DNA from: Polynucleobacter finlandensis
GTDB lineage: Bacteria; Pseudomonadota; Gammaproteobacteria; Burkholderiales; Burkholderiaceae
DNA: 64,000 bases
Direction: 5' to 3'
Assembly: GCF_018881755.1 (NCBI RefSeq)
Contig: NZ_JACVPS010000011.1
Location: 35,655-99,654, forward strand
The notes beneath the pieces were generated by a model that searched no databases, was not told where the DNA came from, and was given only the letters and a program-made list of their open reading frames with translations. Below, one piece after another: positions 23,775-55,785 of this stretch (positions are counted from its first letter, which is position 1; every line of letters starts with the position of its first letter). Both the position numbers and the translations under genes were made by a program.

Positions 23775-23826
23775 GTATGGTTAATATGACTACTGAACTT
23801 TTAATCTACCTTTAATGATCAATATT

Positions 23827-24282
23827 ATGAAAACACTGCTACTTGCTGGATTACTGAGCTTAACTTCTTTGGCTTATGCTGCCGATGCCCCCATGGTGAA
23901 CCCCCACGGTAGTTCGCCGCACGGGGCGGTAGCTAGCGCCGCTGAGATCGGCGATGTCAATGTGACTAAGGCTGTGGGTCAAAATGCCTATACGGTTGCC
24001 GAGATCATCGACCAATCCAAAAGCCTCAAGGACAAGCCGGTGCTGGTGCGGGGCAAAGTGGTTAAATTTAGCCCAGAGATTATGGGTAAAAACTGGATTC
24101 ATTTGCGGGACGGATCTGGTACTGCTGCAGCCAAAAACAATGACTTGGTACTTACCACCAAGGATCAGGCTAAGGTAGGCGCTGTAGTGACGGTGAAGGG
24201 CATCTTGCGTACTGACAAAGATTTTGGTCACGGTTACGCCTATGAAGTCATTATTGAAGATGCTTCAGTGAGCTCTAAATAG
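23827..24282 (+). CDS. periplasmic OB-fold protein
   Basis: About 151 residues with a signal peptide (MKTLLLAGLLSL...AYA). An ATG four codons upstream (23815) is also possible. The mature protein has a low-complexity start (NPHGSSPHG) and then an OB-fold-like region: PVLVRGKVVKFSP, NWIHLRDGSG, VVTVKGILRTDKDF. Similar secreted OB-fold proteins occur next to cytochrome or nitrite-reductase genes (NrfJ-like), but the ligand is unknown. Single gene. Confidence 0.7.
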   Translation: MKTLLLAGLLSLTSLAYAADAPMVNPHGSSPHGAVASAAEIGDVNVTKAVGQNAYTVAEIIDQSKSLKDKPVLVRGKVVKFSPEIMGKNWIHLRDGSGTAAAKNNDLVLTTKDQAKVGAVVTVKGILRTDKDFGHGYAYEVIIEDASVSSK

Positions 24283-24373: not shown

Positions 24374-24940
24374 ATGTACCTCTTTTTTGAACCGACCTTA
24401 GATGATCGCAAGCGCACCCTTGAGGTAGCCTTGCTCTCTATTTATGGTTTATCAGAGCAACCCATCCCCACTTATTTTTGCGATAACGCCTTCTGTTCCA
24501 GAAAGCCTATCAAGAGTTTTAACCTGATTGAGTTATTAAAGTACTGCTGGATTCATCAGTTTGATAAACCAGCACTGTTAGTAGCCTTACCGATAGAGTT
24601 GGAATCCGATACAGCACTCATCCAGCAGTTTGGTGACGCTTACTTGGGGTGCATATCTGGCGCTATTAAAAAGGGTGAGCTACAGAATTTAGCGCTCACC
24701 TATCGCAAGCTAGTGCAGGTAGAGGGCAGTCGCCGGTTTTTCTCAGTACCAAGCTTTGTAGTGGAGGAGCGCCTCAAGCAGACCCCTTTCACCGAAATGG
24801 AAATTAAGTCCTTAGTAAAGCTGCAAGATAAAAATCTGAAGTTAGTTGATCAGTTAATTCAGAAAAAAGTAGATGAACTAAAACGTGAGCTCAGTGTATT
24901 ACCCAACATCCTAAAAAGAGGGATTGGGTCAAGGGCTTAA
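24374..24940 (+). CDS. hypothetical protein
   Basis: 188 residues, not recognised. It is soluble, with no signal or membrane segment. Seen: an FCDNAFC Cys pair near residue 35, a hydrophobic core (ALLVALPIELE), and a charged helical C-terminus (LKLVDQLIQKKVDELKRE) that may form a coiled coil. It lies directly before a Cys-rich small gene on the other strand and the sensor kinase region. A possible FNR-like site upstream hints at control by oxygen. Confidence 0.6.
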   Translation: MYLFFEPTLDDRKRTLEVALLSIYGLSEQPIPTYFCDNAFCSRKPIKSFNLIELLKYCWIHQFDKPALLVALPIELESDTALIQQFGDAYLGCISGAIKKGELQNLALTYRKLVQVEGSRRFFSVPSFVVEERLKQTPFTEMEIKSLVKLQDKNLKLVDQLIQKKVDELKRELSVLPNILKRGIGSRA

Positions 24941-25303: not shown

Positions 25304-27334
25304 ATGAATTTTCATGGGCGTCCTGCCTATCCCATCGGCTTTTTTGCCACCATCACCATTGTTATCGTGGCTGTATCTACGAGCCTGTTGTTATGGGACT
25401 TGCGTAAACGAGAGTTGACCCACACCCGTATGGAGACGATTGGGGTTACCAAAATCTTTGTAGAGCAGACCGAGCGCAGTTTTGAGAGTGCCGATCTTGT
25501 CTTAAGGGGCGTACAGGATCGATTGAACTCAACATTTGGTGTTCAGTTTCCTCTGGATAGTCTCGAGGTTCATTTATTGCTTGGCACCCGTGTCCTAGGA
25601 ATGCGGCAGCTAGATGCATTGTTTTTGATTGATCCGAATGGAAGGTTGGTTAATTCTTCCGCTGAATTTCCTAGCAAGAAGATATCTGTAGTTAATCAAG
25701 ATTACTTTAAAGCATTTGCTAATAAAAAAGATGGCGGGCTTTTTATCGGCAAGCCATTTCGTGATGCGCAGAAAAAAGAATGGACCTTGTATCTTGCGAG
25801 AAAAATTCAAGATCAAGATGGTGCTTTTAAGGGGATAGTCGTTGGCGCAATTGATATTGCCCATTTCGAAGATATTTATCAATTGTTGAAGTTGGATTAC
25901 CCTCGGCCAGTTTCACTGTATCGCGATGATGGTGTTTTGTTAGCAAGCTTTCCCCATCGAGAAAGTCTCATGGGTGAGAGGGCTCCTGAATTAGGAGAGT
26001 ATCTGCCCGTCATTGAATCGGGAAAGATTGAATTTTCTAGCCATAAAAAGAGTAATGGAGAAGCTGAGTTATTCGCCTTGGGTGCCGTTCCCAAGTTCCC
26101 ACTATTTATTTCAGTGACCAATGATGAGGAAGAGGCGCTGGCCTCATCACGTGAGACGGCTATTCCAATTGTGATGAGCGCTGTATTGGTCAGTCTTTTT
26201 ATCATCGCCGCCGCCGGCTTATTGATCCGTGAAGCGGTGCGTCAGCAGAAATTGGCTGATCAATTAGGCGCTGCACATAACCGCTATCAGCATACGATTG
26301 AATCCGTAATGGATGCCATCATTGCGGTAGATGAAGAGCAAAATATCATTTTGTTTAATCCATCAGCTGAACGCATGTTCGGCCTTAAGGCTGTTGATGT
26401 GATAGGCGAGTCTTTACTGGTGCTATTGCCAGAACGTTTTCGTGGCGCCCATCATTCGCATGTACAGAAATTTAAGAAAACAGATAGTGGCTCTCGCACT
26501 ATGGGGCCACAGCTCGGGATTGTCGGGCTGCGCGCTGACGGCACCGAGTTCCCAATTGAGTCCACTATTTCTCAGACGGTGATCAACGGTAAAAAGCAGT
26601 TGACTGCGGTACTCCGAGACGTGACTGAAAGACGTCAGGCCGAGACTGAGTTGCGTGAGATGAATCTGCAACTGCGCGGATTGTCAAAGGCTTTAGAAAA
26701 TATTCGTGAGCAAGAAAGAACCAGAATTGCTAGGGAGTTGCATGATGACCTGGGTCAGCAGCTTACTGGGCTAAAGCTTGAGCTCGCATGGTTAAGCACT
26801 CGCGTGAAAGACGGGCACGCTCTCCCGGTAGATCGAATTACTGAAATGAAGCAGCAATTGGATGGCGCCATTGCATCTGTTCGTCGCATCTCTACAGAAT
26901 TACGCCCCATTATTTTGGACGACTTAGGATTTGAAGAGGCTGTTAAGTGGCTGGTTGGCGAATTTACCAAACGCACTCATATTCCGGTTAATTTAGAGCT
27001 TAAAGAGGAAGTCCGAGTCAGCAATACCAACTTAGCAACTGCGCTGTTCAGAATTGTTCAGGAATCCTTGACGAATATTGCACGACATGCCCAAGCCACT
27101 GCAGTCAATATTTCTCTTGATAAAGATAACGGCCATTTAGTGCTCCTCATTTCTGATGATGGTGTAGGTCTCCCTCCAGAATTGCAATCCGGAGGATTTG
27201 GTTTGGTGAGCATGCGCGAAAGATCCAATGCTTTGGGCGCCAAATTTACTATTAGCAACGGTAAACTGAAGGGCGTTACTATTCGAGTGGAATTTGCACT
27301 TGATTCACCGATCTTTACTGAGGCCAATGCATGA
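25304..27334 (+). CDS. membrane sensor histidine kinase (NarX/DegS-type HisKA_3)
   Basis: 676 residues. Order: membrane helix about 11-31, extracytoplasmic sensor about 36-283 (Cache-like by pattern: RNSSAEFP-type segments, QDYFKAFANKKDGGLFIGKP), second membrane helix about 285-307, PAS domain about 325-440 (IIAVDEEQNIILFNPSAERMFG), HisKA_3 dimerisation domain with RELHDDLGQQL and phospho-acceptor His480, and an ATPase domain about 575-665 (N box QESLTNIARHAQ, SDDGVGLPP, GGFGLVSMRERS). It phosphorylates the response regulator whose start overlaps its stop (ATGA). Neighbouring heme genes suggest it senses an electron donor, acceptor or redox signal. No clear Shine-Dalgarno sequence precedes the ATG. 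Confidence 0.85.
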   Translation: MNFHGRPAYPIGFFATITIVIVAVSTSLLLWDLRKRELTHTRMETIGVTKIFVEQTERSFESADLVLRGVQDRLNSTFGVQFPLDSLEVHLLLGTRVLGMRQLDALFLIDPNGRLVNSSAEFPSKKISVVNQDYFKAFANKKDGGLFIGKPFRDAQKKEWTLYLARKIQDQDGAFKGIVVGAIDIAHFEDIYQLLKLDYPRPVSLYRDDGVLLASFPHRESLMGERAPELGEYLPVIESGKIEFSSHKKSNGEAELFALGAVPKFPLFISVTNDEEEALASSRETAIPIVMSAVLVSLFIIAAAGLLIREAVRQQKLADQLGAAHNRYQHTIESVMDAIIAVDEEQNIILFNPSAERMFGLKAVDVIGESLLVLLPERFRGAHHSHVQKFKKTDSGSRTMGPQLGIVGLRADGTEFPIESTISQTVINGKKQLTAVLRDVTERRQAETELREMNLQLRGLSKALENIREQERTRIARELHDDLGQQLTGLKLELAWLSTRVKDGHALPVDRITEMKQQLDGAIASVRRISTELRPIILDDLGFEEAVKWLVGEFTKRTHIPVNLELKEEVRVSNTNLATALFRIVQESLTNIARHAQATAVNISLDKDNGHLVLLISDDGVGLPPELQSGGFGLVSMRERSNALGAKFTISNGKLKGVTIRVEFALDSPIFTEANA

Positions 27335-27978
27335 AGTACGAAGTATTAGTTGCTGATGACCACGCCATCATTCGTGATGGCCTGCGCAAGATATTGGCAG
27401 ATACGGATGATTTGGTGGTGGCTGGTGAGGCCGCTAACGGTAATCAAGCCTTGGAGAAGGTACGTGAGCGCGATTGGGCTATGGCAATTTTGGACTTATC
27501 CATGCCTGGCAGAAGCGGTATTGAATTGATCAAGCTCATCAAGGCTGAGCGTCCTAAGTTGCCAATCTTGATATTCAGTATGCACCCAGAAGAACAATAT
27601 GCAGTGCGGGCTATTCGGGCGGGCGCCTCTGGCTATCTGTCGAAAGAAGAAGATAGTGATAACTTCTTACCTGCAATCCGTAGAGTGGCAGCAGGCGGCA
27701 TGTTCATTAGCCCTAAAGTCGCTGAATTACTAGCTGCGGATGCCTCTCCTGGGGCCGCACACACACATGCACATAGCAAACTTTCTAATCGGGAACATGA
27801 GGTTCTGGTCCGCATTGTTAAAGGAATCAGCCTGACTGATATTGCGGATGAGTTCTCGCTCAGCATTAAGACTATTAGCACCCACAAAACCCACATTCTT
27901 TCAAAGTTGGGTTTAGCGAGCCAGGCTGACCTGATTCGCTATGCCATCGAGCATAAATTGCTCGATTTAGACAAATAA
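27331..27978 (+). CDS. NarL/FixJ-family response regulator
   Basis: 215 residues: receiver domain about 1-120 with Asp residues DDH near the start, phospho-acceptor Asp55 in AILDLSMPG, the switch residue region ILIFSMH and Lys in GYLSKEE. A linker rich in Ala/His follows (AAHTHAHSK), then a LuxR/NarL helix-turn-helix about 150-210 (LSNREHEVLVRIVKGISLTDIADEF...KTISTHKTHI). Cognate partner of the overlapping kinase. Such proteins bind 7-2-7 inverted heptamers as dimers, and a cluster with this layout lies directly downstream at 27998-28058, before the cytochrome operon. Confidence 0.9.
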   Translation: MKYEVLVADDHAIIRDGLRKILADTDDLVVAGEAANGNQALEKVRERDWAMAILDLSMPGRSGIELIKLIKAERPKLPILIFSMHPEEQYAVRAIRAGASGYLSKEEDSDNFLPAIRRVAAGGMFISPKVAELLAADASPGAAHTHAHSKLSNREHEVLVRIVKGISLTDIADEFSLSIKTISTHKTHILSKLGLASQADLIRYAIEHKLLDLDK

Positions 27979-27997
27979 GCAGAAATAAGCAGATTTG

Positions 27998-28058
27998 TCC
28001 TATCTCCTATAGGAATATTCCTATAGTTATTTACCTTAGCAATCCTATATCTATAGGA
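27998..28058. promoter_or_regulatory. cluster of inverted TCCTATA heptamers (predicted regulator operator)
   Basis: Within 61 bases: TCCTAT(C) at 27998, TCCTATA at 28005, 28019 and 28043, and the complement TATAGGA at 28008 and 28052. They build a perfect 20-base palindrome (28007-28026) and a 7-2-7 inverted repeat (28043-28049, 28052-28058) with a two-base spacer, the arrangement used by NarL-family dimers. A -10-like TAAAAT at 28071-28076 lies just downstream, so the 7-2-7 copy would overlap the -35 region (centre about -32.5). Confidence 0.65.
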
Positions 28059-28132
28059 CGCGTCAAAAAATAAAATTCTCCTTAAGTAATGAAGCCTTGG
28101 GTATTCCCGAGCCAGAACTAAAGGAGAATTAA

Positions 28133-28489
28133 ATGACGCAAGCTAAACAAATCATCCGCACTGTAGCAATCGCTGCTGCAGCTTTGGCATTCACATCAAT
28201 CGCGCACGCTGCCCCTGATGCAGATGCTGCTAAAGCACTGGCCAAGCAAAACAACTGCTTCAAATGCCATGCGGTCGATAAAGATAAAGATGGCCCGTCC
28301 TATCACAGCGTTGCCGAGAAATACAAAGGCAAACCAGGTGCTGAAGCCAAATTAATCAATCACATTACTTCTGGTGAAAAAGCAAAGTTCCCAGATGGTC
28401 ATGAAGAAGAGCACAAGATTGTAAAAACATCCCCACCAAAAGATCCAGAGCAGATTAAGAATTTGGTTCAGTGGATTTTGGCTCAGTAA
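28133..28489 (+). CDS. monoheme c-type cytochrome (MtoD-like by position)
   Basis: 118 residues with a signal peptide (ending AHA), so periplasmic. One heme motif NNCFKCHAV at residues 42-46. There is no Met after the initiator, so the usual His/Met ligation is impossible; the sixth ligand is probably a His (candidates in SYHS, NHIT, DGHEEEH). The C-terminal helix (PEQIKNLVQWILAQ) is typical of class I cytochromes. First gene of the heme operon, with AAGGAG before the ATG. By position it could be the periplasmic shuttle, as MtoD is proposed to be in iron oxidisers; orthology is inferred only from context. Confidence 0.8.
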   Translation: MTQAKQIIRTVAIAAAALAFTSIAHAAPDADAAKALAKQNNCFKCHAVDKDKDGPSYHSVAEKYKGKPGAEAKLINHITSGEKAKFPDGHEEEHKIVKTSPPKDPEQIKNLVQWILAQ

Positions 28490-28543
28490 GAACCAAACAA
28501 AGAAATAAGAACTCACTCGAAATCGTAAGCACGAGGAAAGCAA

Positions 28544-29521
28544 ATGAAGATCTTCAAAAAACTTCTAGTAATTAGCGCGGTAATGGGTGCCATTGGTTTG
28601 GCGCCCGTTGCATTTGCACAAAATAACTTGCCTGATTTAGGTCAGTCAAAAGCGAACATTGCAAAAGCCGCATTTAAAGAAGATGCCAAATGCACCAAGT
28701 GCCACGACGAGAGTGAAAATGCTCCTGTACTGTCTATTTATCAAACCAAGCATGGTGTGAAGGGTGACGACCGCACACCAAGCTGTACGTCTTGTCATGG
28801 TCAAAGTGACAAACACTTGGCTGGCGATAAAGACGGCAAGGGTCGTCCATCACCAGATTTTGTCTTTAAGAAGGGCGTTTACGATAAGAGCGCAAGTCAA
28901 GATCGTATGGATCGCTGCCAAACTTGCCACAAAGGAGAAAAGCGTACTAACTGGAACGGCTCACAGCACCAGGTGAATGATGTGGCCTGTAACGATTGCC
29001 ACGTAGTGCATAACCCAGTAGACAAGGTCAGGGTTAAAAAGACTCAAACTCAGGTTTGCTATACCTGCCATAAAGAACAACGTGCAGATAGCTACAAAAC
29101 ATCTACCCATCCAATTGAAGTAGGCAAAGTAGTGTGCTCCGACTGTCACAACCCACATGGTTCTGCAGGCCCATCATTACTCAAGAAAAATACTCTGAAT
29201 GAAACCTGCTTCCTTTGCCATGCAGAGAAACGCGGCCCAGTATTGTTCGAACATCAACCAGTGGTTGAGAACTGTGCAAACTGCCATACGCCTCATGGCT
29301 CGAATATCAGTCCATTGCTGAAAGATCGTCCTCCATTCTTATGCCAGGATTGTCATGATGGCCCACACGCTAGTCCTAGTGCATACGGTCCTAATATCAC
29401 CGGCGTTCAGGGTGGGTATCAAGGCAAGCCAAGTGCAAACGGTATGGGTAGAGCTTGCATGAATTGTCACGTAATGGTTCATGGCTCCAATAGTCCTGCT
29501 GGTGGATTCTTCCAACGTTAA
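28544..29521 (+). CDS. mtoA: decaheme c-type cytochrome, MtoA/PioA/MtrA (DmsE) family
   Basis: 325 residues with a signal peptide (ending AFAQ). Ten CXXCH motifs can be counted: CTKCH, CTSCH, CQTCH, CNDCH, CYTCH, CSDCH, CFLCH, CANCH, CQDCH, CMNCH. Length and heme number match the MtrA/MtoA/PioA family, in which the heme wire sits inside an outer-membrane barrel and carries electrons across it. The barrel gene follows after 29 bases. No longer N-terminal extension like that of PioA is present, so it is closer to MtoA/MtrA in layout. Whether electrons flow inward (iron oxidation) or outward cannot be decided from sequence. Confidence 0.85.
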   Translation: MKIFKKLLVISAVMGAIGLAPVAFAQNNLPDLGQSKANIAKAAFKEDAKCTKCHDESENAPVLSIYQTKHGVKGDDRTPSCTSCHGQSDKHLAGDKDGKGRPSPDFVFKKGVYDKSASQDRMDRCQTCHKGEKRTNWNGSQHQVNDVACNDCHVVHNPVDKVRVKKTQTQVCYTCHKEQRADSYKTSTHPIEVGKVVCSDCHNPHGSAGPSLLKKNTLNETCFLCHAEKRGPVLFEHQPVVENCANCHTPHGSNISPLLKDRPPFLCQDCHDGPHASPSAYGPNITGVQGGYQGKPSANGMGRACMNCHVMVHGSNSPAGGFFQR

Positions 29522-29550
29522 TGAACACAGTTGATCGATAAGAGGCTTGT

Positions 29551-31971
29551 ATGAAAAACAGATCTAAATTTAATTTACGGCTAAGCGCAATTACTGTAGG
29601 TGTGCTTGGGTTGTTTGCGGTAAGTTCTGCGATGGCAGATGATGAGGAAATTAAGGCGCTAACTCAGCCCAAAAGTTCAGTCCAGGTGGAGATGATTGGG
29701 GTTGATCAAAACTCTGCCAAGTTCGGTGAATACAACGGCCTAGCTGGGCATCCATCTGGTGCCTATCCAAATGGCGGATTTAGTGTCAAAGGTGGTAATG
29801 GTTATACCAATAATGAGCAGGGTGACACCACTCGTTATTCAGTCACTGGTGAAAATTTAGGCCTAACATCGCGCTCTGCTAACGCCTCTATTGCGGAACA
29901 GGGTAGCTGGAATTTTGGAGTTAACTTTGACCAACTTCAGCACAATATTACGAATACATATCAGACCCCATATAACGGATCTATGGGGGGTAATACCTTT
30001 ACCTTGCCAAGCAACCTTTCATCACCTAATGGTCTTGATAAAACGCAGCCAGGTAGTCAACCATTTTCACCAGCCGGAGTTGGTACAAACAAATCGGTAG
30101 TAAGTTCAGATTTACAAGGTATGGGTATTTCAACTACTCGATATAACACCACGCTTAACGGTACTGCGATTGTTGATAAGAGCCTTAATTTCACATTTGA
30201 ATATAATAATTTGGTTCAAACGGGCGCCAAATTGATGGCTTTTGGCGGCTCTACTTATGGGAATGGAACAGGTTCAAATAGCGGTAATGCTCAAGTTGTA
30301 TCCATCCTACCGAATCCAACGAATTATCAAACTGATACTCTGAATTTGGCAGTTAATTGGAAGGGTGAGAATTCATTTGTAACTGCCTCGTATTTTGGAT
30401 CTTTCTTCAAAGATAATTACAACTCTGTTAATTGGCAGGCTTTTAGTACAAATGCATCGGGCTCGACAGCACTTACCCCAATGCAGACGATGAGTACGGC
30501 CCCAAGCAATGCCTTTAATCAATTAAATTTAAACGGCGGATATGATTTTTCATCGAAGACTAAATTAACAAGCAATATTTCAATTGGTCAAAATACTCAA
30601 AATCAAGGTTTCGGTGGCACATATGATGCTGCCATGGTGACCCCAAGCCAAAACAGCACTTTGAAGTCTGCATATGCTTTACCTACTTCTTCAATGAATG
30701 GCTTAGTCAATACAACTCATGCGGATATTAAACTTACGGATCAATCTGTTAAAGATTTGAACCTGTCTGCAAGCGCAAAGTATGACGAAAGAAATAATTT
30801 AACCCAGTCCAATATATATAACTTCTCCTCATTGAGCGGGACTGCGGGTCTGTATCCCAATACTCCTTTGAGTAATAAGCAGCTCCAACTGGCATTGGGT
30901 GGAGACTATCGTTTGACTAAAGATCAAAAACTGAATTTGACTTTGGCAAACAATAATATTGAACGCTGGTGTAATCAGTATGGGGCAGCAAATAGTTTGG
31001 GTGGAAATGCAGCCAACTATCCAGGAGGCACAAATTGTGTCAATGCCACCAGCAGTAACGAAAACGTGGCGAACTTAGCCTATAAACTAAAGGCAAATGA
31101 AGATTTAAATTTTAAAGCGATAGCCGGTTATAGTAATCGAAAAACGCAGTGGAATCAGCAGGCATTAGCAGCATTTGTGGATAACAACATTAATGGCAGT
31201 AGTAGTTATGCTCCTGGCTACAACGGCGCTAATGCAATCGGCTTCCAGCCTTACTTCGAAGCTTCTCGCAAGCAATTCTTGGGCAAGGCAAATGCTAATT
31301 GGCAAGCGACTGAAAATCTTGGCATTACCTTGGGTGGAAAATATACGAATGATCTCTATCCTGACTCTACATATGGCGTTCAAAATGGTAATTCTTGGAG
31401 CTTGAATTTAGATGGTACATATGCTTATGCTGAGAAGGGCACAGTTTCTGCTTATGCTACGCAACAAAATCAATTCCGAACAATGACTAACTTGCAAAGT
31501 ACTACAACGGGTGCTTGGAATAATTCATTGACAAACAAGGCTACTACTGTAGGCGTAGGCTTTAAGCAGGCTGACCTTATTGAGGGCAAATTGACTCTAA
31601 CAGGTGATGCCACAATGTCTTTTGCTGCGTCACAATACAGCACAGGAATTCCTTATGCGGTTGCTGGAAGTGGTTCTGGAATTGCTACGGTAGCGGCGGG
31701 CTGTTCCGCCCCAAACTCAGTATATAACTGTGGCATGTTGCCTGCCATCCAGAATAATCTGGGGATCATTAAGTTGGGGGGTAGTTACCAGGTTGATAAA
31801 AATTCAAAAGTTGGGTTGATGTACTGGTATCAACATCTGTATAGCAATGATTACTATTACAACGCTTATCAGTATGGAAGCGCACCAACTGGTGTAATGC
31901 CAACAAACCAAACAGCCCCAAGTTATAACGTAAATGTATTCGCAGTTAATTACACCTACACCTTTGATTGA
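29551..31971 (+). CDS. mtoB: outer-membrane beta-barrel of porin-cytochrome complex, MtoB/PioB/MtrB family
   Basis: 806 residues with a signal peptide (ending SAMA). The rest is an alternating polar/hydrophobic pattern rich in Asn, Thr, Ser, Tyr and Gly, ending VNYTYTFD, the usual last barrel strand with terminal aromatic-Asp. Length fits the 26-28-strand MtrB/PioB barrels. No CXXC pair near the mature N-terminus is seen. Internal cysteines lie in two pairs (CNQY...GTNC and CSAP...YNC), probably in surface loops. It sheathes the decaheme cytochrome encoded just upstream. No outer-surface MtrC/OmcA-type cytochrome is present, as in MtoAB and PioAB systems. Confidence 0.8.
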   Translation: MKNRSKFNLRLSAITVGVLGLFAVSSAMADDEEIKALTQPKSSVQVEMIGVDQNSAKFGEYNGLAGHPSGAYPNGGFSVKGGNGYTNNEQGDTTRYSVTGENLGLTSRSANASIAEQGSWNFGVNFDQLQHNITNTYQTPYNGSMGGNTFTLPSNLSSPNGLDKTQPGSQPFSPAGVGTNKSVVSSDLQGMGISTTRYNTTLNGTAIVDKSLNFTFEYNNLVQTGAKLMAFGGSTYGNGTGSNSGNAQVVSILPNPTNYQTDTLNLAVNWKGENSFVTASYFGSFFKDNYNSVNWQAFSTNASGSTALTPMQTMSTAPSNAFNQLNLNGGYDFSSKTKLTSNISIGQNTQNQGFGGTYDAAMVTPSQNSTLKSAYALPTSSMNGLVNTTHADIKLTDQSVKDLNLSASAKYDERNNLTQSNIYNFSSLSGTAGLYPNTPLSNKQLQLALGGDYRLTKDQKLNLTLANNNIERWCNQYGAANSLGGNAANYPGGTNCVNATSSNENVANLAYKLKANEDLNFKAIAGYSNRKTQWNQQALAAFVDNNINGSSSYAPGYNGANAIGFQPYFEASRKQFLGKANANWQATENLGITLGGKYTNDLYPDSTYGVQNGNSWSLNLDGTYAYAEKGTVSAYATQQNQFRTMTNLQSTTTGAWNNSLTNKATTVGVGFKQADLIEGKLTLTGDATMSFAASQYSTGIPYAVAGSGSGIATVAAGCSAPNSVYNCGMLPAIQNNLGIIKLGGSYQVDKNSKVGLMYWYQHLYSNDYYYNAYQYGSAPTGVMPTNQTAPSYNVNVFAVNYTYTFD

Positions 31972-32011
31972 TACCTTCGGAATACCTTTAAATAAAAGAA
32001 CGGATTAAATT

Positions 32012-32608
32012 ATGGAAACTAAACAACCAGGTGCATTAAAGCGTTTTTGGGCTTTCGTTAAGAAACCTAGTGCCAAGTATTCCATACTGGCCATTTTCTC
32101 CGTTGCTTTTATCTCGGGTATTTTGTTCTGGGGTGCATTCAATACTGGAATGGAAGCGACTAATACTCTGGCTTTCTGTACCACTTGCCACGAGATGCGT
32201 GACAACGTGTATCAGGAATACAAAGAAACGATTCACTATAGCAACCGTACTGGTGTACGTGCTATTTGTTCTGATTGCCATGTGCCAAAAGACTGGACTC
32301 ATAAGATGATTCGCAAGTCACAGGCTGCATTTGAAGTTTGGGGCAAGATTACGGGTTCTATCGATACGCGTGAGAAGTTCGAGGCTAAGCGTATGGAGTT
32401 GGCTAGCCACGAATGGGCGCGTATGAAGGGGAATAATTCACGCGAATGCCGTAACTGCCATGATTTTGATGCGATGAGCCCAGAATTGCAGAAGCAGACG
32501 CCTTATAAGAAGCATATGAAGGCAAAAGAGTCTGGCAAGACCTGTATTGACTGCCATAAGGGTATTGCGCATCAACTGCCTAAAGAGTATGAAGAGTCTG
32601 ACGATTAA
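32012..32608 (+). CDS. tetraheme NapC/NirT-family quinol-linked cytochrome (CymA-like)
   Basis: 198 residues: a single N-terminal membrane helix (about residues 22-45, ILAIFSVAFISGILFWGAF) and a periplasmic domain with four CXXCH motifs (FCTTCHEM, ICSDCHVP, CRNCHDF, CIDCHKG). Members exchange electrons between the membrane quinone pool and periplasmic partners. As last gene of the operon it completes a chain: quinone pool, NapC/CymA-type cytochrome, periplasmic monoheme or decaheme cytochrome, outside. A stem-loop follows at 32638-32670. Confidence 0.85.
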   Translation: METKQPGALKRFWAFVKKPSAKYSILAIFSVAFISGILFWGAFNTGMEATNTLAFCTTCHEMRDNVYQEYKETIHYSNRTGVRAICSDCHVPKDWTHKMIRKSQAAFEVWGKITGSIDTREKFEAKRMELASHEWARMKGNNSRECRNCHDFDAMSPELQKQTPYKKHMKAKESGKTCIDCHKGIAHQLPKEYEESDD

Positions 32609-32675: not shown

Positions 32676-33329
32676 ATGACTACTCATATTTCAGAACCTC
32701 CTAATTTGTCTTTGAAGCCATCCTCACTTCGCGCCAATGCATTAACCTGCGTTCGGGGTGAGCGCACCCTTTTTACGGGTTTAGATTTGGAAGTTTCTGC
32801 TGGTGAGTGGTTGCATGTTCGTGGCGAAAATGGCATTGGTAAAACTAGCCTGTTGCGCCTCTTGTCTGGTTTAACAAAACCTGCGGCAGGTGAAATCTTT
32901 TGGAATGAGCAATTGATTTCTGCTGATCCTTCTGAGTACCATCGCAATCTTCTCTTTTTAGGTCACCGAGATTCTCTCAAGGAAGATCTCACTGCGCTTG
33001 AAAATCTTTCCATTGCCACGGCATTGGATGGGATAGCTGTTACTGAAGATAAGATCTTGCTGGCCTTGCATCGCTTTGGTTTAAGGGGGCGAGAGGATTT
33101 GCCCGTTAATTGTTTATCAGCTGGCCAAAAGCGTAGGGTGCTTCTGGCCAGATTGCTGTTGCGCCAGGCAAAACTGTGGATTTTGGATGAGCCCTTTAAC
33201 GCTCTAGATGTGCGTGCTGTTGAGATGCTCTCCGAATTAATCTTGGAACACATTGCTTCTGGCGGCATGGCAATCATGACTAGTCATCAAGAGATTCCGA
33301 TGCCGAACGGCAGGGTGGTCCAGCTATGA
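32676..33329 (+). CDS. ccmA: cytochrome c maturation ABC ATPase CcmA
   Basis: 217 residues. Walker A GENGIGKTSL, signature LSAGQKRRVLLARL, Walker B LWILDEPFNALD, and a switch His in MTSHQE. It works with CcmB and CcmC to release heme-loaded CcmE. First gene of a complete ccmABCDEFGHI order; the stop overlaps ccmB (ATGA). Placement next to a 16-heme gene set suggests joint supply of heme attachment. Confidence 0.95.
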   Translation: MTTHISEPPNLSLKPSSLRANALTCVRGERTLFTGLDLEVSAGEWLHVRGENGIGKTSLLRLLSGLTKPAAGEIFWNEQLISADPSEYHRNLLFLGHRDSLKEDLTALENLSIATALDGIAVTEDKILLALHRFGLRGREDLPVNCLSAGQKRRVLLARLLLRQAKLWILDEPFNALDVRAVEMLSELILEHIASGGMAIMTSHQEIPMPNGRVVQL

Positions 33330-33991
33330 GCGCATTCTTAGCCATCATTCGCCGGGACTTGCTCTTGGTAATGCGCCGCAAGAGCGAAGTACTCACTATC
33401 TTGTTCTTCTTTGTGATTGTGACTAGTCTGTTTCCGCTGGGCATTGGGGCGGATACAGCGCTTCTGCGTAAGATTGCCCCTGGGGTGATTTGGGTCACTG
33501 CCTTGTTATCGACCATGTTGGGCCTACAACGCCTTTTTGCCACGGATTTTGCCGATGGGACCCTGGAACAAATGGCACTTTCACCAACTCCATTGGCCCT
33601 GCTCGTGGGGGGTAAAATTGCTGCACACTGGTTGGTATGCGGTTTGCCATTGGCCTTATTGGCACCGGTGATCGGCATTCAGTTTGATCTGGATGCCAGC
33701 ACCTTAGGAACTGTGATTTTGACACTATTAATAGGTACACCGATTTTGTCTTTGATTGGAGCGATTGGCGCTGCATTGACCCTGGGTGTGCGTGGTGGTG
33801 GCGTCTTATTAAGTCTTTTAGTTCTCCCTCTCTACATTCCGGTGCTCATTTTTGGCGCTGGTGCTGTCTATGCGCAAAGTGTTGGGCTTGATGTGGGTGG
33901 ACATTATTCGTTATTAGGCGCTTTGCTAGTCTTGGCTTTATTTTTTGCTCCCTGGGCAACCACCGCTGCAGTAAGGATTGCAATCGAATGA
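33326..33991 (+). CDS. ccmB: cytochrome c maturation permease CcmB
   Basis: 221 residues, six membrane segments predicted by eye. The N-terminal amphipathic stretch FLAIIRRDLLLVMRRKSEVL and the central FADGTLEQMALSP are characteristic of CcmB. It forms the membrane part of the CcmAB transporter. Overlaps both neighbours by four bases. Confidence 0.95.
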   Translation: MSAFLAIIRRDLLLVMRRKSEVLTILFFFVIVTSLFPLGIGADTALLRKIAPGVIWVTALLSTMLGLQRLFATDFADGTLEQMALSPTPLALLVGGKIAAHWLVCGLPLALLAPVIGIQFDLDASTLGTVILTLLIGTPILSLIGAIGAALTLGVRGGGVLLSLLVLPLYIPVLIFGAGAVYAQSVGLDVGGHYSLLGALLVLALFFAPWATTAAVRIAIE

Positions 33992-34764
33992 GTTCTATTC
34001 TTGATAGTCGTTCTGGCCGCACTAACCAGTTAGTCAATTGGTTTAAGTTTTCCAGTCCCGCCACTTTTTATCCATTAGCCGGGAAACTCATTCCATTCTT
34101 TTGGGCGCTCGCAATCATTTTCGGTATTGCTGGTTTATGGATTAGCTTCTTCGTTGCGCCAGTAGACGCAGTGCAAGGACAAGGCTACCGCATCATTTTT
34201 GTCCACGTACCAGCTTCGTGGATGTCGATGTTTATCTACATCATGATGGCGATTTGGGCTGGCTTAGGGTTAGTGTTTAATACGCGCCTGTCTGCCATGA
34301 TGGCTCAAGCTTTAGCGCCTACCGGTGCGTTAATGGCCTTCATATCACTGTGGACTGGTGCTTTCTGGGGTAAGCCCATGTGGGGTGCTTGGTGGGTATG
34401 GGATGCCCGCCTCACTTCTGAACTCATTCTTCTCTTTTTATACCTTGGCTTTATGGCCCTGCAGGCCTCGATTGATGATCCACGTCGCGCAGATAAAGCG
34501 GGCGCCATTTTGGCTTTAGTTGGTGTAGTCAATGTTCCAATAATTTACTTTTCGGTGAAGTGGTGGAATACCTTGCATCAAGGCGCATCGGTTTCTATTA
34601 ACAAATCACCCTCAATGGCGCACACCATGTTGTGGGGAATGCTCTTAGTGGCTTTGTGTTTCTGGATGTATTCGATTGCGATTGCGTTGATGCGAGTGCG
34701 AACGATTATTTTGGAGCGTGAGTCTCACTCTGATTGGGTGAGAACTTTGGAAGGGGTGAAGTAA
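33988..34764 (+). CDS. ccmC: heme handling protein CcmC
   Basis: 258 residues, six membrane segments. The tryptophan-rich WGAWWVWDARLTSEL motif of the heme-handling superfamily is present, with flanking periplasmic His residues (HVPASWM and NTLHQGASV). CcmC presents heme to CcmE in the periplasm. ATG overlaps the ccmB stop. Confidence 0.95.
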   Translation: MSSILDSRSGRTNQLVNWFKFSSPATFYPLAGKLIPFFWALAIIFGIAGLWISFFVAPVDAVQGQGYRIIFVHVPASWMSMFIYIMMAIWAGLGLVFNTRLSAMMAQALAPTGALMAFISLWTGAFWGKPMWGAWWVWDARLTSELILLFLYLGFMALQASIDDPRRADKAGAILALVGVVNVPIIYFSVKWWNTLHQGASVSINKSPSMAHTMLWGMLLVALCFWMYSIAIALMRVRTIILERESHSDWVRTLEGVK

Positions 34765-34766
34765 TC

Positions 34767-34955
34767 ATGTGGAATTCACCGGCGGAATTTTTTGCTATGG
34801 GCGGATACGCCTTATATGTATGGAGTAGCTTTGGAGTCTGTGCTTTGATTTTGGTGCTTGAGCCCATTGCCATTAATGCGCGTCGTAAAAAGATTGTGCA
34901 AAGATTGCAGCGCGAGATTCGTGCTGAGAAATTCGATAAAGAAGGAATGAAGTGA
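34767..34955 (+). CDS. ccmD: heme exporter accessory protein CcmD
   Basis: 62 residues, ATG at 34767, two bases after ccmC. One membrane helix (about 12-36) followed by a charged cytoplasmic tail ([14 protein letters not shown]), as in CcmD. The conserved Tyr of the periplasmic end may be in GGYALYVW. Needed for release of heme-CcmE. Its stop overlaps the GTG of ccmE. Confidence 0.85.
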
Positions 34956-35383
34956 AACCAAGACATAAACGGGCGCTGATGATTGTTGGTGCCTTAGCGA
35001 CATTAGCCATTGCTGCAGTTCTGATTCTCAATGCATTAAATAGCAATATTGCCCTCTACGTCACTCCTAGTGAAGTTGCTGCTGGTAAAGCGCCCAAGGG
35101 TCAAACATTCCGCATTGGCGGTATGGTGAAAGATGGCTCACTCAAGCGCGATGAATTGGTGGTGCACTTCATCATTACTGATTTGGTTCAAGAGATTCCT
35201 GTTTCTTATAAAGGCATTCTTCCGGATTTGTTTAAAGAGGGCAAGGGCGCTGTTGTCCAAGGCAAGTTGGATCCCGATGGACAATTCGTTGCTAGCGAAG
35301 TGCTTGCTAAGCATGATGAGAATTACATGCCGCCAGAGGCAAAGCATGCTTTAGAGCAAGCGCAGAAAAACGGAGCCAAATAA
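34952..35383 (+). CDS. ccmE: periplasmic heme chaperone CcmE
   Basis: 143 residues, GTG start overlapping ccmD. N-terminal membrane anchor (about 9-27) and an OB-fold domain. The heme-binding His is in [12 protein letters not shown], giving the HxxxY pattern of class I CcmE proteins. It carries heme covalently to the CcmFH ligase. Confidence 0.95.
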
Positions 35384-37305
35384 TGGAATACTCAATGATT
35401 CCGGAGATCGGCCATTTCGCGTTAATCCTCGCTCTTGGCGTTTCAATTATTCAAGGTGTGTTGCCTTTGATTGGCGCCCAACAAGGTCGTCGCGAATGGC
35501 TAGTATTGGCTAGACCTGCAACCCAGATTTCTTTTGTGCTGTTGGCGATTTCATTTGCCATCTTAGCTTGGTGCTTTTATGTCAATGATTTTTCTGTCCT
35601 CTATGTGGCAGAGCACTCCAACTCACAACTGCCGACTGTTTATCGCTTAGGCGCTGTTTGGGGTGGTCATGAAGGTTCTCTATTGTTGTGGATCTTCTTA
35701 TTAACAGGCTGGGCCTTTGCGGTTGCGCAACTCTCTAAAACATTGGATGAGTTCATGGTAGCCCGCGTGCTGGGCGTGTTGGGTTTAGTCGCAACAGGAC
35801 TCTTGCTATTCGTGTTGGCTACTTCAAATCCTTTTGAGCGTTTATTGCCTGCAGCACAAGATGGCCGTTCTTTAAACCCACTCTTGCAAGATCCAGGTTT
35901 AGTGTTTCATCCGCCAATGCTCTATATGGGCTATGTTGGTTTCTCAGTAGCCTTTGCTTTTGCAATCGCCTCTCTGTTGTCTGGCAAGCTTGATGCCGCT
36001 TGGGCACGTTGGTCGCGTCCATGGACAACTACCGCATGGATCTTCCTAACACTCGGTATTGCGCTCGGCTCATGGTGGGCTTACTATGAATTAGGTTGGG
36101 GCGGTTGGTGGTTTTGGGATCCGGTTGAGAACGCTTCATTCATGCCGTGGTTGATTGGCACTGCTTTATTGCATTCCTTAGCGGTGACTGAGAAACGCGG
36201 TGGCTTTAAAAACTGGACAGTACTTCTAGCCATTATTGCTTTCTCAATGTCCTTGCTCGGAACCTTCTTGGTGCGTTCTGGTGTTCTGACATCAGTACAT
36301 GCCTTTGCTACCGACCCACGTCGCGGCATCTTTATTTTGATTCTGCTTTCTTTGGTAGTGGGCTCATCCTTGTTCCTGTATGCCTTAAGAGCCCCAAAGA
36401 GCACATTGGGCGGTGCCTTCTCTTTGATGTCACGCGAAACATTAATGCTCTTGGGTAACGTTTTCTTGGTAGTGGCTGCAGGCTCTGTGCTCCTGGGAAC
36501 CTTATATCCATTGCTGATTGATGCCTTGAATCTTGGCAAGATCTCCGTAGGCCCCCCTTACTTTAATGCGGTCTTTGTACCGATCATGGTTCCCGTTCTG
36601 TTCTTGCTGGCGATTGGTCCGTGGGCCAATTGGAAGAGCACCAATCTCAATGCATTGCTTAAGCGCTTATGGTTAGCAGCAGTCGTTGCAGTCGTTGCAG
36701 CCATCTTGATTCCACGCATGATGGGTGAATTCACGATCTTGACTGCATTAGGCTTCTTGCTTTCATTCTGGATTATTGCTTCCGGTGTATTGCAAATCAT
36801 TCGGCAGTTCAAGGTTGGCAAGCCGACTCGCTCCTTTATTGGTATGCAATTAGGTCACATTGGTATTGCAGTATTTGTGATTGGCGTCACGATGGTGGGC
36901 GCATACCAAGAAGAAAAAGATGTGCGCATGGCGCCTGGCGATACAGTGTCAGTTGGTGGTTATCAGATTCGGTTAGTGGAAGTGCGTCCTGCTCAAGGGC
37001 CTAACTATCAAGCCACTCGTGGCACCTTTGAGTTAGGTCGTCATGGTAAGACCGAAGAGGTTTTATATCCTGAGAAGCGCAATTACGATTCATCGACGAT
37101 GCCAATGACTGAGGCGGCTATTAACGCAGGCTTGACACGGGATATCTATATTTCTCTTGGCGAGCCTTTGGAAGGCAATGCTTGGGCTGTACGCGTTTAC
37201 TACAAACCATTTGTCGATTGGATTTGGGGCGGCTGTTTATTAATGGCTTTAGGGGGCCTATTCGCAGTATTGGATAAGCGCTATCGTCTGCGCCTCAAGA
37301 AATAA
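35383..37305 (+). CDS. ccmF: cytochrome c heme ligase CcmF
   Basis: 640 residues, about 15 membrane segments. WGGWWFWDPVENASFMPW is the heme-handling WWD motif; conserved His are in WGGHEGSLLLW, FHPPMLYMGY and LLHSLAV. Joins heme to apocytochrome CXXCH motifs together with CcmG and CcmH. ATG overlaps the ccmE stop by one base. Confidence 0.97.
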   Translation: MEYSMIPEIGHFALILALGVSIIQGVLPLIGAQQGRREWLVLARPATQISFVLLAISFAILAWCFYVNDFSVLYVAEHSNSQLPTVYRLGAVWGGHEGSLLLWIFLLTGWAFAVAQLSKTLDEFMVARVLGVLGLVATGLLLFVLATSNPFERLLPAAQDGRSLNPLLQDPGLVFHPPMLYMGYVGFSVAFAFAIASLLSGKLDAAWARWSRPWTTTAWIFLTLGIALGSWWAYYELGWGGWWFWDPVENASFMPWLIGTALLHSLAVTEKRGGFKNWTVLLAIIAFSMSLLGTFLVRSGVLTSVHAFATDPRRGIFILILLSLVVGSSLFLYALRAPKSTLGGAFSLMSRETLMLLGNVFLVVAAGSVLLGTLYPLLIDALNLGKISVGPPYFNAVFVPIMVPVLFLLAIGPWANWKSTNLNALLKRLWLAAVVAVVAAILIPRMMGEFTILTALGFLLSFWIIASGVLQIIRQFKVGKPTRSFIGMQLGHIGIAVFVIGVTMVGAYQEEKDVRMAPGDTVSVGGYQIRLVEVRPAQGPNYQATRGTFELGRHGKTEEVLYPEKRNYDSSTMPMTEAAINAGLTRDIYISLGEPLEGNAWAVRVYYKPFVDWIWGGCLLMALGGLFAVLDKRYRLRLKK

Positions 37306-37339
37306 TTCAACATATTTACTTACGAATAGATCAGTCAAT

Positions 37340-37870
37340 ATGAAAGCAAAATTTGTTATTCCACTAATACTCTTTATTGTATTGGTGGGATTCTTGGCAG
37401 TTGGCTTAAATCGTGATCCACGTGAAGTGCCGTCACCCTTAATTAATAAGCCTGCACCTGCATTTAAGGTTTCTCAGTTAGCGGACCCAAGCAAGTCATT
37501 TTCTCCAGAAGATCTAAAGGGGCAAGTGTGGGTTTTAAATGTTTGGGCTTCTTGGTGTGTAGCTTGCCGTGAAGAGCATCCGATGTTGGTTGAGATGAGT
37601 AAGTCTCAAGTGGCGCCTTTAATTGGACTTGATTACAAAGACAAGCGTACTGATGCGATGGAAATGCTGGCAAGACAAGGTAACCCATACAACTTATCGG
37701 CATTCGATAATGATGGCCGCGTTGGTATTAACTATGGTGTATATGGTGTTCCTGAAACTTACGTGATTGATAAAGCGGGGATCATTCGCTTTAAGCAAAT
37801 TGGTCCAATTACCAAAGAGGTGTTGGAGAAGTCGATGTATCCCATCATTGCTCAGTTGAAAAAGGAATAA
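37340..37870 (+). CDS. ccmG: thiol:disulfide oxidoreductase CcmG (DsbE)
   Basis: 176 residues: membrane anchor at the N-terminus (about 6-23), then a periplasmic thioredoxin fold with active site WASWCVACREEHP and the cis-Pro region YGVYGVPETYV. Reduces the cysteines of apocytochromes before heme attachment. Length is typical. Confidence 0.95.
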   Translation: MKAKFVIPLILFIVLVGFLAVGLNRDPREVPSPLINKPAPAFKVSQLADPSKSFSPEDLKGQVWVLNVWASWCVACREEHPMLVEMSKSQVAPLIGLDYKDKRTDAMEMLARQGNPYNLSAFDNDGRVGINYGVYGVPETYVIDKAGIIRFKQIGPITKEVLEKSMYPIIAQLKKE

Positions 37871-37873
37871 GCA

Positions 37874-38353
37874 ATGAATATTAAATTCATCAAACTTCAG
37901 CAATTTCTATCTTGTATCTGTTTGGCGTTATTTATTCATATTGCGCATGCAGATGAAGCTACCCCTTTAGCTTCCGATCCAGCGCTAGAGCAACGGTTGG
38001 TTTCTATCTCAGAAGAGATGCGTTGCTTAGTGTGTCAAAACGAATCTCTCTCAGGATCACGTTCAGAACTAGCGCAAGACCTTCGTCGAGAAATTCGGGA
38101 TCTAATTAAGCAAGGCAAGACCGATGCAGAAATCAGGACCTTTATGGTCGATCGTTATGGCGATTTTATTTTGTACCGTCCGCCGGTCAAGCCCACTACT
38201 TGGTTGCTGTGGATTGGACCATTTGTTTTGATGTTTGCAGGCATTGTGGCGCTGTTGATGTACTTACGTCGCCGAAACACTCAAGTGGCCACTACCTCAC
38301 TTTCTGATGATGAAAATAAGCGCATAGATGCTCTATTGCGAGATGACAAATGA
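37874..38353 (+). CDS. ccmH: cytochrome c maturation protein CcmH (CcmL)
   Basis: 159 residues. Signal peptide (ending AHA), then the CcmH/CycL domain with active site MRCLVCQNESLSGS and a C-terminal membrane helix (WLLWIGPFVLMFAGIVALLM) with a basic stop. This is the short CcmH form; the TPR part is the separate ccmI. Its stop overlaps the ccmI start by four bases. Confidence 0.95.
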   Translation: MNIKFIKLQQFLSCICLALFIHIAHADEATPLASDPALEQRLVSISEEMRCLVCQNESLSGSRSELAQDLRREIRDLIKQGKTDAEIRTFMVDRYGDFILYRPPVKPTTWLLWIGPFVLMFAGIVALLMYLRRRNTQVATTSLSDDENKRIDALLRDDK

Positions 38354-39564
38354 TTACTTTTTATATTGCCGCCATTGTTTTGGTTTTACTCGTTCTAGCA
38401 GCCTTGTTTCGCCCATTCTTTTGGAAGACGACTGTTCATCACGCTTCTCGCCAACAGTTAAACGCAGCCATCTATAAAGAAGAGATTGCTAAGCTTGAGA
38501 AAGAGCGTTCTGAAGGTTTGATTGATGGCGCAACTTATGAGATCTCTCATGCAGAGATGCGTCAGCGTTTATTTCAGGACACTAGCGAGGATGATGGCGT
38601 GGCGGTATTAGGTTCTCCCAAGAAAACCATCATTGCGCTGACCATTTTTATTCCAGTGATTGCTGCTGCGATGTATTTTTGGTTAGGTAGCGCTCAGCAG
38701 ATCGCTGATGGTGGCGCTAAGCAACAGGTCGCTCAACAAGATGTTGAGAAGATGGTGGCTGGATTGGCGGCTAAGATGGAGCAAGATCCAAGCAATCTAA
38801 AAGGCTGGGCAATGCTAGCCCGTTCCTATAAGGTGATGGGCCGTCCAAAAGACGCTGAAAAAGCCTACGACCGTGCAGGCTCCTATTTGGATACCGACCC
38901 CCAATTGTTGGCTGATTATGCAGACGTGTCTGCCAGTAATGCCAATGGTAGTTTTGAAGGTAAACCTCAGGCAATTATTAATAGAGCTTTGAAGGCTGAT
39001 CCCAATAACATGATGGCGCTTTGGTTGGCTGGTACCGCTGATTACAATCGGGGTGATTACAAAGGGGCCGTACAAGTTTGGGGTCGCTTAGCGAAGTTAC
39101 TGCCTGCTGATTCTGAAGACATGAAGATGATTCAGGGCTCTATTATGGAAGCTCGCGGTAAGGCTAATTTGCCTCCGGAGCCTTTAGTAAGTCAAGCGAC
39201 ATCCCCTGTTGTTGCTGTGAGCGGTAAAAATATTAATGGCACTGTTGAAATCAACCCTGATCTCAAATCCAGAATCAAACCAGACTACATCGTGATGGTG
39301 ATTGCTCGTGCTCCTGGCGCCCGTATGCCGGTAGCCATTATGCGAGGTAAAGCTGCTGATCTTCCTCTGCGTTTTGTCTTGAACGATGCCCTGGCAATGA
39401 CTCCAGATGCCCTGATCTCCAATCTGAGCGAAGCAACGATCGAGGTGCGGATCTCTAAATCAGGCCAAGCTAAGGCTGAACCCGGGGATTTGTATTCTGA
39501 GATCCAGACGGTGAAGGTTGGCACGAATAATCTGAAGGTTGTGGTCGATCAAGTTAGACCTTAG
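38350..39564 (+). CDS. ccmI: cytochrome c maturation apocytochrome chaperone CcmI
   Basis: 404 residues. Two N-terminal membrane helices (about 2-20 and 95-115) with a cytoplasmic loop, then TPR-like repeats (NLKGWAMLARSYKVMGRPKDAEKAYDRA, MALWLAGTADYNRGDYKGAVQVW) and a C-terminal beta domain (GTVEINPDL, YIVMVIARAPGARMPVA). Holds the apocytochrome C-terminus for the ligase. Last clear ccm gene. Confidence 0.9.
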   Translation: MITFYIAAIVLVLLVLAALFRPFFWKTTVHHASRQQLNAAIYKEEIAKLEKERSEGLIDGATYEISHAEMRQRLFQDTSEDDGVAVLGSPKKTIIALTIFIPVIAAAMYFWLGSAQQIADGGAKQQVAQQDVEKMVAGLAAKMEQDPSNLKGWAMLARSYKVMGRPKDAEKAYDRAGSYLDTDPQLLADYADVSASNANGSFEGKPQAIINRALKADPNNMMALWLAGTADYNRGDYKGAVQVWGRLAKLLPADSEDMKMIQGSIMEARGKANLPPEPLVSQATSPVVAVSGKNINGTVEINPDLKSRIKPDYIVMVIARAPGARMPVAIMRGKAADLPLRFVLNDALAMTPDALISNLSEATIEVRISKSGQAKAEPGDLYSEIQTVKVGTNNLKVVVDQVRP

Positions 39565-55732: not shown

Positions 55733-55785
55733 GAACCCAGTTCATTTGAATTATGTCGCTGTTTGGTCACAAAAAAGGAGAAACC

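Follow-up and report, generated by a model that had tools for sequence, protein, structure and literature searches.

A candidate Mto-type electron conduit with a linked two-component system and a probably exchanged outer membrane barrel in Polynucleobacter finlandensis

Polynucleobacter, a genus widespread in fresh waters, is generally described as an aerobic heterotroph. The locus described here, predicted to code for an electron conduit of the Mto type, is located in a stretch of 64,000 nucleotides from P. finlandensis (contig NZ_JACVPS010000011.1, positions 35,655 to 99,654), hereafter called the window, which is part of a 2.28-Mb genome of 41 contigs (genome code G000). The closest described systems are the Mto cluster of Sideroxydans lithotrophicus ES-1, MtrCAB of Shewanella and PioABC of Rhodopseudomonas palustris, the last being a phototrophic iron-oxidation operon. 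The ES-1 cluster contains genes for MtoD (Slit_2498), MtoA (2497), MtoB (2496), CymA/ImoA (2495) and PmcA (2494) (PMC12016527, PMC13390432). He et al. (2019, PMC6344600) had already reported homologues of MtrAB, MtoAB and PioAB for some Polynucleobacter of humic lakes, and a 2025 table for Trout Bog gives a share of 0.43 of the Polynucleobacter metagenome-assembled genomes (MAGs) as positive for extracellular electron transfer (EET) and lists 0-3 EET genes of the oxidative kind and 0-1 of the reductive kind (PMC12285243). With moderate confidence, the locus in the window is read here as an Mto-type conduit with its own switch and maturation genes, which would serve electron uptake and in which mtoB and the 3' end of mtoA appear to have been recombined between lineages.

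The original prediction, made from the DNA alone, had described a sensor kinase and a NarL-type regulator coupled by ATGA, an operator-like repeat cluster, and genes for a monoheme cytochrome, a decaheme cytochrome, an outer membrane barrel and a tetraheme NapC/CymA-type cytochrome, followed by ccmA-I. All of these genes were found where it had placed them, with the overlap and the expected numbers of CXXCH motifs.

25304..27334, + strand, sensor histidine kinase, dCache_1-PAS-HisKA_3-HATPase_c (Pfam profiles)
27331..27978, + strand, NarL-type response regulator, Response_reg and GerE (profiles), ATGA overlap with the kinase gene
28009..28024, no strand, predicted operator, palindrome ATAGGAATATTCCTAT, 108 bp before mtoD and conserved in relatives
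28133..28489, + strand, mtoD, periplasmic monoheme cytochrome c (one CXXCH; PDB 4xxl, E 6e-44)
28544..29521, + strand, mtoA, decaheme cytochrome (ten CXXCH; TIGR03508, 278 bits, cut-off 192; MtrA chain 6r2q_A, E 2e-67)
29551..31971, + strand, mtoB, outer membrane barrel of the MtrB/PioB family (PF11854, 358 bits, cut-off 23; TIGR03509, 393 bits, cut-off 240)
32012..32608, + strand, cymA/imoA-like gene, tetraheme NapC-family inner membrane cytochrome (four CXXCH; PF03264, 249 bits, cut-off 24)
32676..39564, + strand, ccmABC(D)EFGHI, cytochrome c maturation by System I, ccm type common to Mto-positive genomes (open reading frames; ccmF tree)

The structure 4xxl, labelled Cytochrome c class I in the search output, is presumably that of MtoD. 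The model of the MtoB barrel (mean predicted local distance difference test score 77.5) matched the MtrB chain 6r2q_B with a TM-score of 0.89 (normalised by target), the next-ranked chain reaching 0.43; since both MtrB/PioB profiles and the structural match were passed, the barrel keeps the family assigned to it. With the narrower profile TIGR02161, CymA scored 297 bits, under the cut-off of 310.6. The gap between ccmC and ccmE contains a ccmD-like frame.

The same four components in the same order, mtoD-mtoA-mtoB-cymA, are found in the Mto cluster of ES-1, in agreement with the porin-cytochrome (Mto-like) module originally predicted, a further likeness being that no MtrC-family gene was found. 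In ES-1, cymA is followed by pmcA, whereas here ccmA takes that place directly. The locus also differs from the ES-1 cluster in its linked two-component system and palindrome, in the lack of RuBisCO, in its host from a heterotroph lineage and in the apparent exchange of the outward pair (MtoA-MtoB) between copies. Shewanella MtrCAB is alike in the decaheme cytochrome and barrel fold but has MtrC, and an MtrCAB identity was rejected here because the MtrC/OmcA family (TIGR03507) had no match in any of the 10 Mto-positive genomes searched, as the predicted lack of a surface cytochrome would have it. PioABC shares with the locus a decaheme-barrel pair without MtrC; in contrast to it, no PioC-like gene is present in the cluster, and photoferrotrophy was rejected for this genome because a photosynthetic reaction centre (PF00124) was not found in G000. 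Autotrophic iron oxidation was rejected because none of the 18 genomes searched yielded RuBisCO. With the exception of PmcA, every sequence feature tested fits an Mto conduit. The Polynucleobacter homologues of He et al. (2019, PMC6344600) belong to the same genus and conduit family, and their acquisition was already suspected there; compared with the part of that account available, the additions made here are the regulator and operator of an apparently dedicated switch, the linkage and block transfer with ccm, and the barrel exchange.

Among 16 copies of the cassette, many of them partial, the median amino acid identity was 53 % for MtoB, 77 % for the last third of MtoA, 89 % for the remainder of MtoA, 87 % for MtoD and 94 % for CymA, with 79 % for CcmA, 91-93 % for CcmB, CcmC, CcmE and CcmF, 90 % for the regulator and 75 % for the kinase. 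Barrels were 46-64 % identical to that of the window where CymA was 94-99 % identical. Of 91 pairs of copies with cymA, 15 had a cymA synonymous divergence (pS) below 0.45, and in all 15 the pS of mtoB was 0.66-0.73; the pairs are not independent, and partial genes with fewer than 40 shared codons were skipped. The reverse case was seen between G130 and G128_C17, a 4.3-kb contig of a mixed MAG, with a pS of 0.02 for mtoB, 0.46 for cymA and 0.52 for ccmA. The tract exchanged in G128_C17 has the following equivalent in the window.

29275..32086, no strand, 3' end of mtoA, all of mtoB and the first 75 bp of cymA (informative sites, identity profile)

At sites differing between the window and G130, G128_C17 matched G130 836 times and the window 10 times within this tract, the window 105 times and G130 14 times downstream of it, and the window 41 times and G130 29 times upstream. 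The contigs of G128 are probably derived from several strains, and C22 and C160 appear to be parts of the same allele. The other exchange pairs do not depend on G128_C17.

Trees agreed with these comparisons, some of the groups submitted to the approximately unbiased (AU) test having been picked after the trees had been viewed. The cymA+ccmA tree, which is weakly resolved and has no starred branch, rejected a grouping of G130 with G128_C17 (AU p 9e-4) and a clade of G094, G051 and G140, which have one common barrel type (p 0.002). The mtoB tree rejected the window with G128_C17 (AU p 1.2e-5) and the flank group of the window, G128_C17, G051 and G140 (p 6e-6). As judged by identity, synonymous sites and trees, mtoB, together with the 3' end of mtoA, varies independently of the flanking cassette genes. 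The nonsynonymous divergence of mtoB tracked that of mtoA (rho 0.78 with the N-terminal part, 0.65 with the C-terminal part) and not that of cymA (0.06) or ccmA (0.08), which suggests that the MtoA-MtoB pair tends to stay matched; synonymous sites, at which mtoB is near saturation, lacked this contrast (mtoB-cymA 0.52, mtoB-mtoA 0.18-0.23). In the available part of Baker et al. (2022, PMC8805035), the trees of MtrA and MtrB seldom depart from that of the cluster, and the pair is argued to be structurally tied. The exchange pattern described here is on a finer scale, and it fits such a tie because the end of mtoA lies within the tract exchanged.

The predicted outer loops of MtoB, assigned to their side by alternation from the C-terminus as an assumption and compared without G128_C17, a near-copy of G130, had a mean pairwise difference of 0.64, compared with 0.41 in the strands, and 4 of 697 circular shifts gave a difference as large. 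The ratio of nonsynonymous to synonymous divergence (dN/dS) of mtoB was 0.10-0.25 in the 12 of 13 pairs for which it was defined. The idea that positive selection alone caused the diversity of the barrels was rejected, dN/dS being at most 0.25 and synonymous sites diverging too. Mosaic evolution of outer membrane proteins is known in E. coli, where the account available describes local recombination, overall negative selection and most variable extracellular loops (PMC12175518), as for mtoB here; the present case differs in that an electron conduit is concerned and that the tract includes the end of the cytochrome partner.

Other genera were compared by means of the best 80 loci from an MtoA scan of named genomes (at least 585 relatives). 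Exchange-like pairs were L030/L051 (CymA 94 %, MtoB 27 % identical) and L018/L079 and L028/L079 (CymA 86-89 %, MtoB 58-59 %), and concordant pairs were L023/L025, L026/L029 and L038/L079 (MtoB 86-97 %). The flanks of the exchange-like pairs are already well diverged at the DNA level, and barrel exchange outside Polynucleobacter is suggestive only. The Comamonadaceae locus L051 has a response regulator 94 % identical to that of L032 and CymA 94 % identical to that of L030, with a barrel 27-30 % identical to those of L030 and L032; its barrel may have been replaced by that of a distant MtoAB type.

The two-component system was found together with the conduit. Regulator orthologues with 89-100 % identity were present in 8 of 151 genomes, all of them Mto-positive, the next best match being 46 % identical, while some member of this large regulator family was found in 151 of 151; with the orthologues of G176 (87 %) and G179 (93 %) the total was 10 of the 14 genomes with CymA. 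The regulator gene adjoins mtoD on one contig at eight loci (the window, G131, G130, G121, G094, G092, G176 and G179). In other genera, a regulator more than 50 % identical was found at 22 of the best 80 loci, the other 58 having no such regulator on the stretch at hand, which for some was a short contig. A search for the gene order in relatives, proposed with the original prediction, recovered histidine kinase-response regulator-mtoD-mtoA-mtoB-cymA-ccm in the Comamonadaceae loci L018, L028, L030 and L038. A paralogue of the regulator, 46 % identical, is located at C13:7203-7823 of G000 and is also present in G094 and G083.

The repeat cluster proved to contain a conserved palindrome, TAGGAANNTTCCTA, the copy of which at 28010-28023 is the sole site in the window at one mismatch or less (chance expectation 0.10; at least one site in 10 of 100 shuffles). 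The form ATAGGAANNTTCCTAT was found with 0-1 mismatch in 8 of 9 regulator-mtoD gaps, 107-119 bp before mtoD, the ninth gap (G128_C22) being cut by the contig end. In whole genomes, with one mismatch allowed, ATAGGAANNTTCCTAT occurred once in each of six Mto-positive genomes, at the regulator-mtoD gap, and in 0 of 4 Mto-negative genomes; the reversed control pattern occurred once in G094, three times in G176 and not in the others. Among the 22 gaps of the best 80 loci, TAGGAANNTTCCTA was found with up to two mismatches in 19, of which 14 had 0-1 mismatch, or in 18 of 21 when L042, which comes from Polynucleobacter (the contig of G179), was excluded. For the five gaps with two mismatches, shuffles preserving only single-base content equalled the match in 0-9 of 500 cases. 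From this linkage and the single-copy predicted operator, which strengthen the earlier proposal that the module has its own two-component system, the system looks dedicated to Mto. The classical NarL heptamer is TACYYMT. It was rejected as the operator: the regulator-mtoD gap of the window has no match, and those of G121 and G094 have one each. Another conserved stretch, TCCTATATCTA, at 28045-28060, about 20-25 bp after the palindrome in Polynucleobacter gaps and with CCTATAT-like copies in some gaps of other genera, may be a further half-site.

The left boundary of the cassette was seen in relatives without Mto. In G011 an acyl-CoA-synthetase-like gene is followed by about 120 bp and then ccmA, and in G085 a TctC-like gene stands before ccmA; in the window, the spot empty in these two genomes is occupied by 8.8 kb reaching from an oligonucleotide-binding (OB) fold-like gene, absent between the locus flanks in both, to cymA.

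23815..24282, + strand, OB-fold-like predicted exported protein, left end of the present/absent cassette (PF01336 and PF16100, both below cut-off)
24374..24940, + strand, 188-aa protein of the cassette, without family (no match in Pfam or NCBIfam)

The self-contained module predicted at 25304..32608 was thus right in its components and too narrow in its extent: the cassette starts at 23815, because the present/absent boundary lies there, and the ccm operon travels along. The gene for the 188-aa protein is retained in G131, G130, G121, G094 and G140. The OB-fold-like protein recurs next to Mto genes at L026, L029 and L094 (two Polaromonas loci and one of Gallionella, 56-61 % identity) and may be an accessory of Mto-type clusters.

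The complete genomes G131 (Mto-positive) and G060 (Mto-negative) have the genes on both sides of the locus in common, and between these flanks G060 has only ccm, whereas in G131 ccm is accompanied by the Mto cassette and by three additional genes that likewise flank ccmI in the window. In the rpoB tree of 18 genomes (those of 30 with a usable gene; the two-part gene of G102 and the fragmentary one of G128 were left out), G131 stood beside G060 (100/100) and G176 far out. In the ccmF tree, G131 and G176 grouped with the other Mto-positive genomes and with the Mto-negative G011 and G085 (support 100/98 with outgroups, 97/95 without). The ccmF data rejected a clade of G131 and G060 (AU p 1.8e-53), and rpoB rejected the genomes having ccm of the Mto type as a clade (AU p 2e-36). 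From this conflict together with the common flanks it is concluded that Mto and this type of ccm were passed jointly from species to species, at a conserved site; in G011 and G085, the ccm type without Mto arose by loss or otherwise. A ccmF match was obtained in 151 of 151 genomes, although in 15 of these it was weak only (E 8e-4 to 3e-8), probably to a paralogue, and the idea that ccm is present only because of Mto was rejected on this count. By the ccmF comparison it is the type of ccm, not its presence, that goes with Mto.

The distribution in the genus is patchy: CymA was matched at E <= 1e-60 in 14 of 186 genomes and the PF11854 barrel in 12 of 151, a smaller search set. Two of the 14, G126 and G149, have Mto contigs of 3.4 and 5.1 kb which may be mis-binned, and they were left out of the identity, pS, loop, tree and operator-gap comparisons. 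For G126, mis-binning is suggested because its barrel gene is nearly identical to that of G130 (pS 0.01) while its CcmF is only 56 % identical to that of the window; the G149 barrel is 27 % identical to that of the window. Reaction-centre genes are present in 80 of 186 genomes but, among the 14 with CymA, only in G126, G149 and G179; in the first two the Mto contig may be a product of mis-binning. G176 contains a second CymA/NapC gene, 76 % identical (L177, G176:C15:16000-35999), on a 20-kb stretch where the other window genes have no match.

In the working proposed for the conduit, the Cache/PAS sensor of the kinase would detect a cue of the oxic-anoxic boundary, the regulator would bind the palindrome and switch on mtoDAB-cymA, and System I would attach the hemes. 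Fe(II) or reduced humics outside the cell would donate electrons to the outward hemes of MtoA inside MtoB, the electrons would flow inward and MtoD would hand them to a high-affinity cbb3 oxidase, CymA being a side or reverse route. The exchange of mtoB and the 3' end of mtoA between lineages would likely occur by homologous recombination. The putative electron sink is located 23 kb to the right.

55753..57225, + strand, ccoN, cbb3 oxidase subunit I, outside the cassette (TIGR00780, 767 bits)

Uptake is favoured as the direction because neither MtrC nor MenD above its cut-off was found and a cbb3 oxidase gene is nearby. It would supplement heterotrophy (lithoheterotrophy) and not feed autotrophy, since this genome yielded neither RuBisCO nor a reaction centre. 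For Sideroxydans CL21, a rise of mtoD and cymA/imoA in iron-oxidising cells is reported (PMC12442390).

The opposite direction, in which CymA would draw on quinol and MtoA-MtoB would discharge to oxidised humics or Fe(III), easing redox pressure once oxygen runs out, is rather unlikely, although several reports point that way: humics were proposed as the electron acceptor for humic-lake EET genes (He et al. 2019, PMC6344600), MtoA and PioA are described as forming no function-specific clade and MtrCAB as able to run backwards (Baker et al. 2022, PMC8805035). It is opposed by the missing MtrC in the 10 Mto-positive genomes, by MenD not exceeding its cut-off in any of 18 genomes, and by the presence of MtoD, for which a potential of +155 mV is given in ES-1 (PMC13390432). 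The diversity of the barrels, for its part, could come from fast divergence of a loosely constrained outer membrane protein with no exchange between lineages, mtoB being the least conserved gene between genera too and its predicted loops varying most; this is improbable, as the synonymous sites of mtoB are near saturation in every pair with both flanks close and nearly identical in G130 and G128_C17, where the flanks have diverged, and the trees of mtoB and flanks conflict. That the locus serves extracellular dimethyl sulfoxide (DMSO) respiration of the DmsEF kind is suggested by the name of TIGR03508, the DmsE family, and is highly unlikely: the neighbours are mtoD, cymA and ccm, no molybdenum reductase was present among the proteins scanned between 21084 and 45032, and DmsEF was rejected for want of a linked DMSO reductase among them.

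Several observations weigh against the favoured reading of a switched Mto conduit for uptake with an exchanged barrel. The role of MtoD is the main doubt of the mechanism: in the ES-1 study, as far as available, MtoD bound neither MtoA nor ImoA and its partner was PmcA (PMC13390432), and pmcA was not found downstream of cymA at the cluster here (PmcA elsewhere in the genome was not searched). The position of pmcA was not taken as defining for an Mto conduit, because the Mto cluster was named before PmcA. ImoA can replace CymA in quinol oxidation in Shewanella (PMC13390432), which makes outward flow possible. MenD was not found above its cut-off, no search for the futalosine menaquinone route having been made; matches below the cut-off in all 18 genomes are probably to other thiamine-diphosphate enzymes. 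Four of the 14 genomes with CymA (G051 and G128, which are fragmented MAGs, G126 and G149) yielded no regulator orthologue, and the palindrome TAGGAANNTTCCTA fails in the gaps of L038, L057 and L097. Finally, G128_C17 could be an assembly chimera, since the window and G130 share an identical 62-bp run just right of the tract, ending at 32148.

It is quite possible, and suggested here only tentatively, that a fixed frame (the sensor, one-target regulator, single operator, maturation genes and CymA) moves as a block while MtoA-MtoB is traded between lineages in the manner of a surface antigen, because the outer loops of the barrel are seen by phages, grazers or local iron and humic ligands. If true, no electron-transfer conduit before it would have been shown to evolve as a phage receptor does. 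The selecting agent on the outer side of an electron wire is left open in the available part of Baker et al. (2022, PMC8805035), and a swapped outward face combined with fixed regulation makes it testable whether this is ligand, mineral or phage. A portable, switchable uptake cassette would let some Polynucleobacter species use iron or humic electrons, and the single palindrome offers a regulator-operator pair open to direct assay. In the titles and abstract openings listed from the open-licence literature, subscription journals and preprints being outside the search, neither a two-component system for mto nor an exchange of mtoB alleles was met, the papers listed on mtoA regulation containing no mtoA and the mtoB-specific search being uninformative, and MtrB as a phage receptor was not found in the open-licence search.

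Right of the ccm operon, a gene for an NrdJ-like B12-dependent ribonucleotide reductase at 41523-45032 appears to be intein-bearing (TIGR01445, residues 286-365); the G128 copy aligns over the full 1169 aa, and the G131 copy is a frame of 794 aa.

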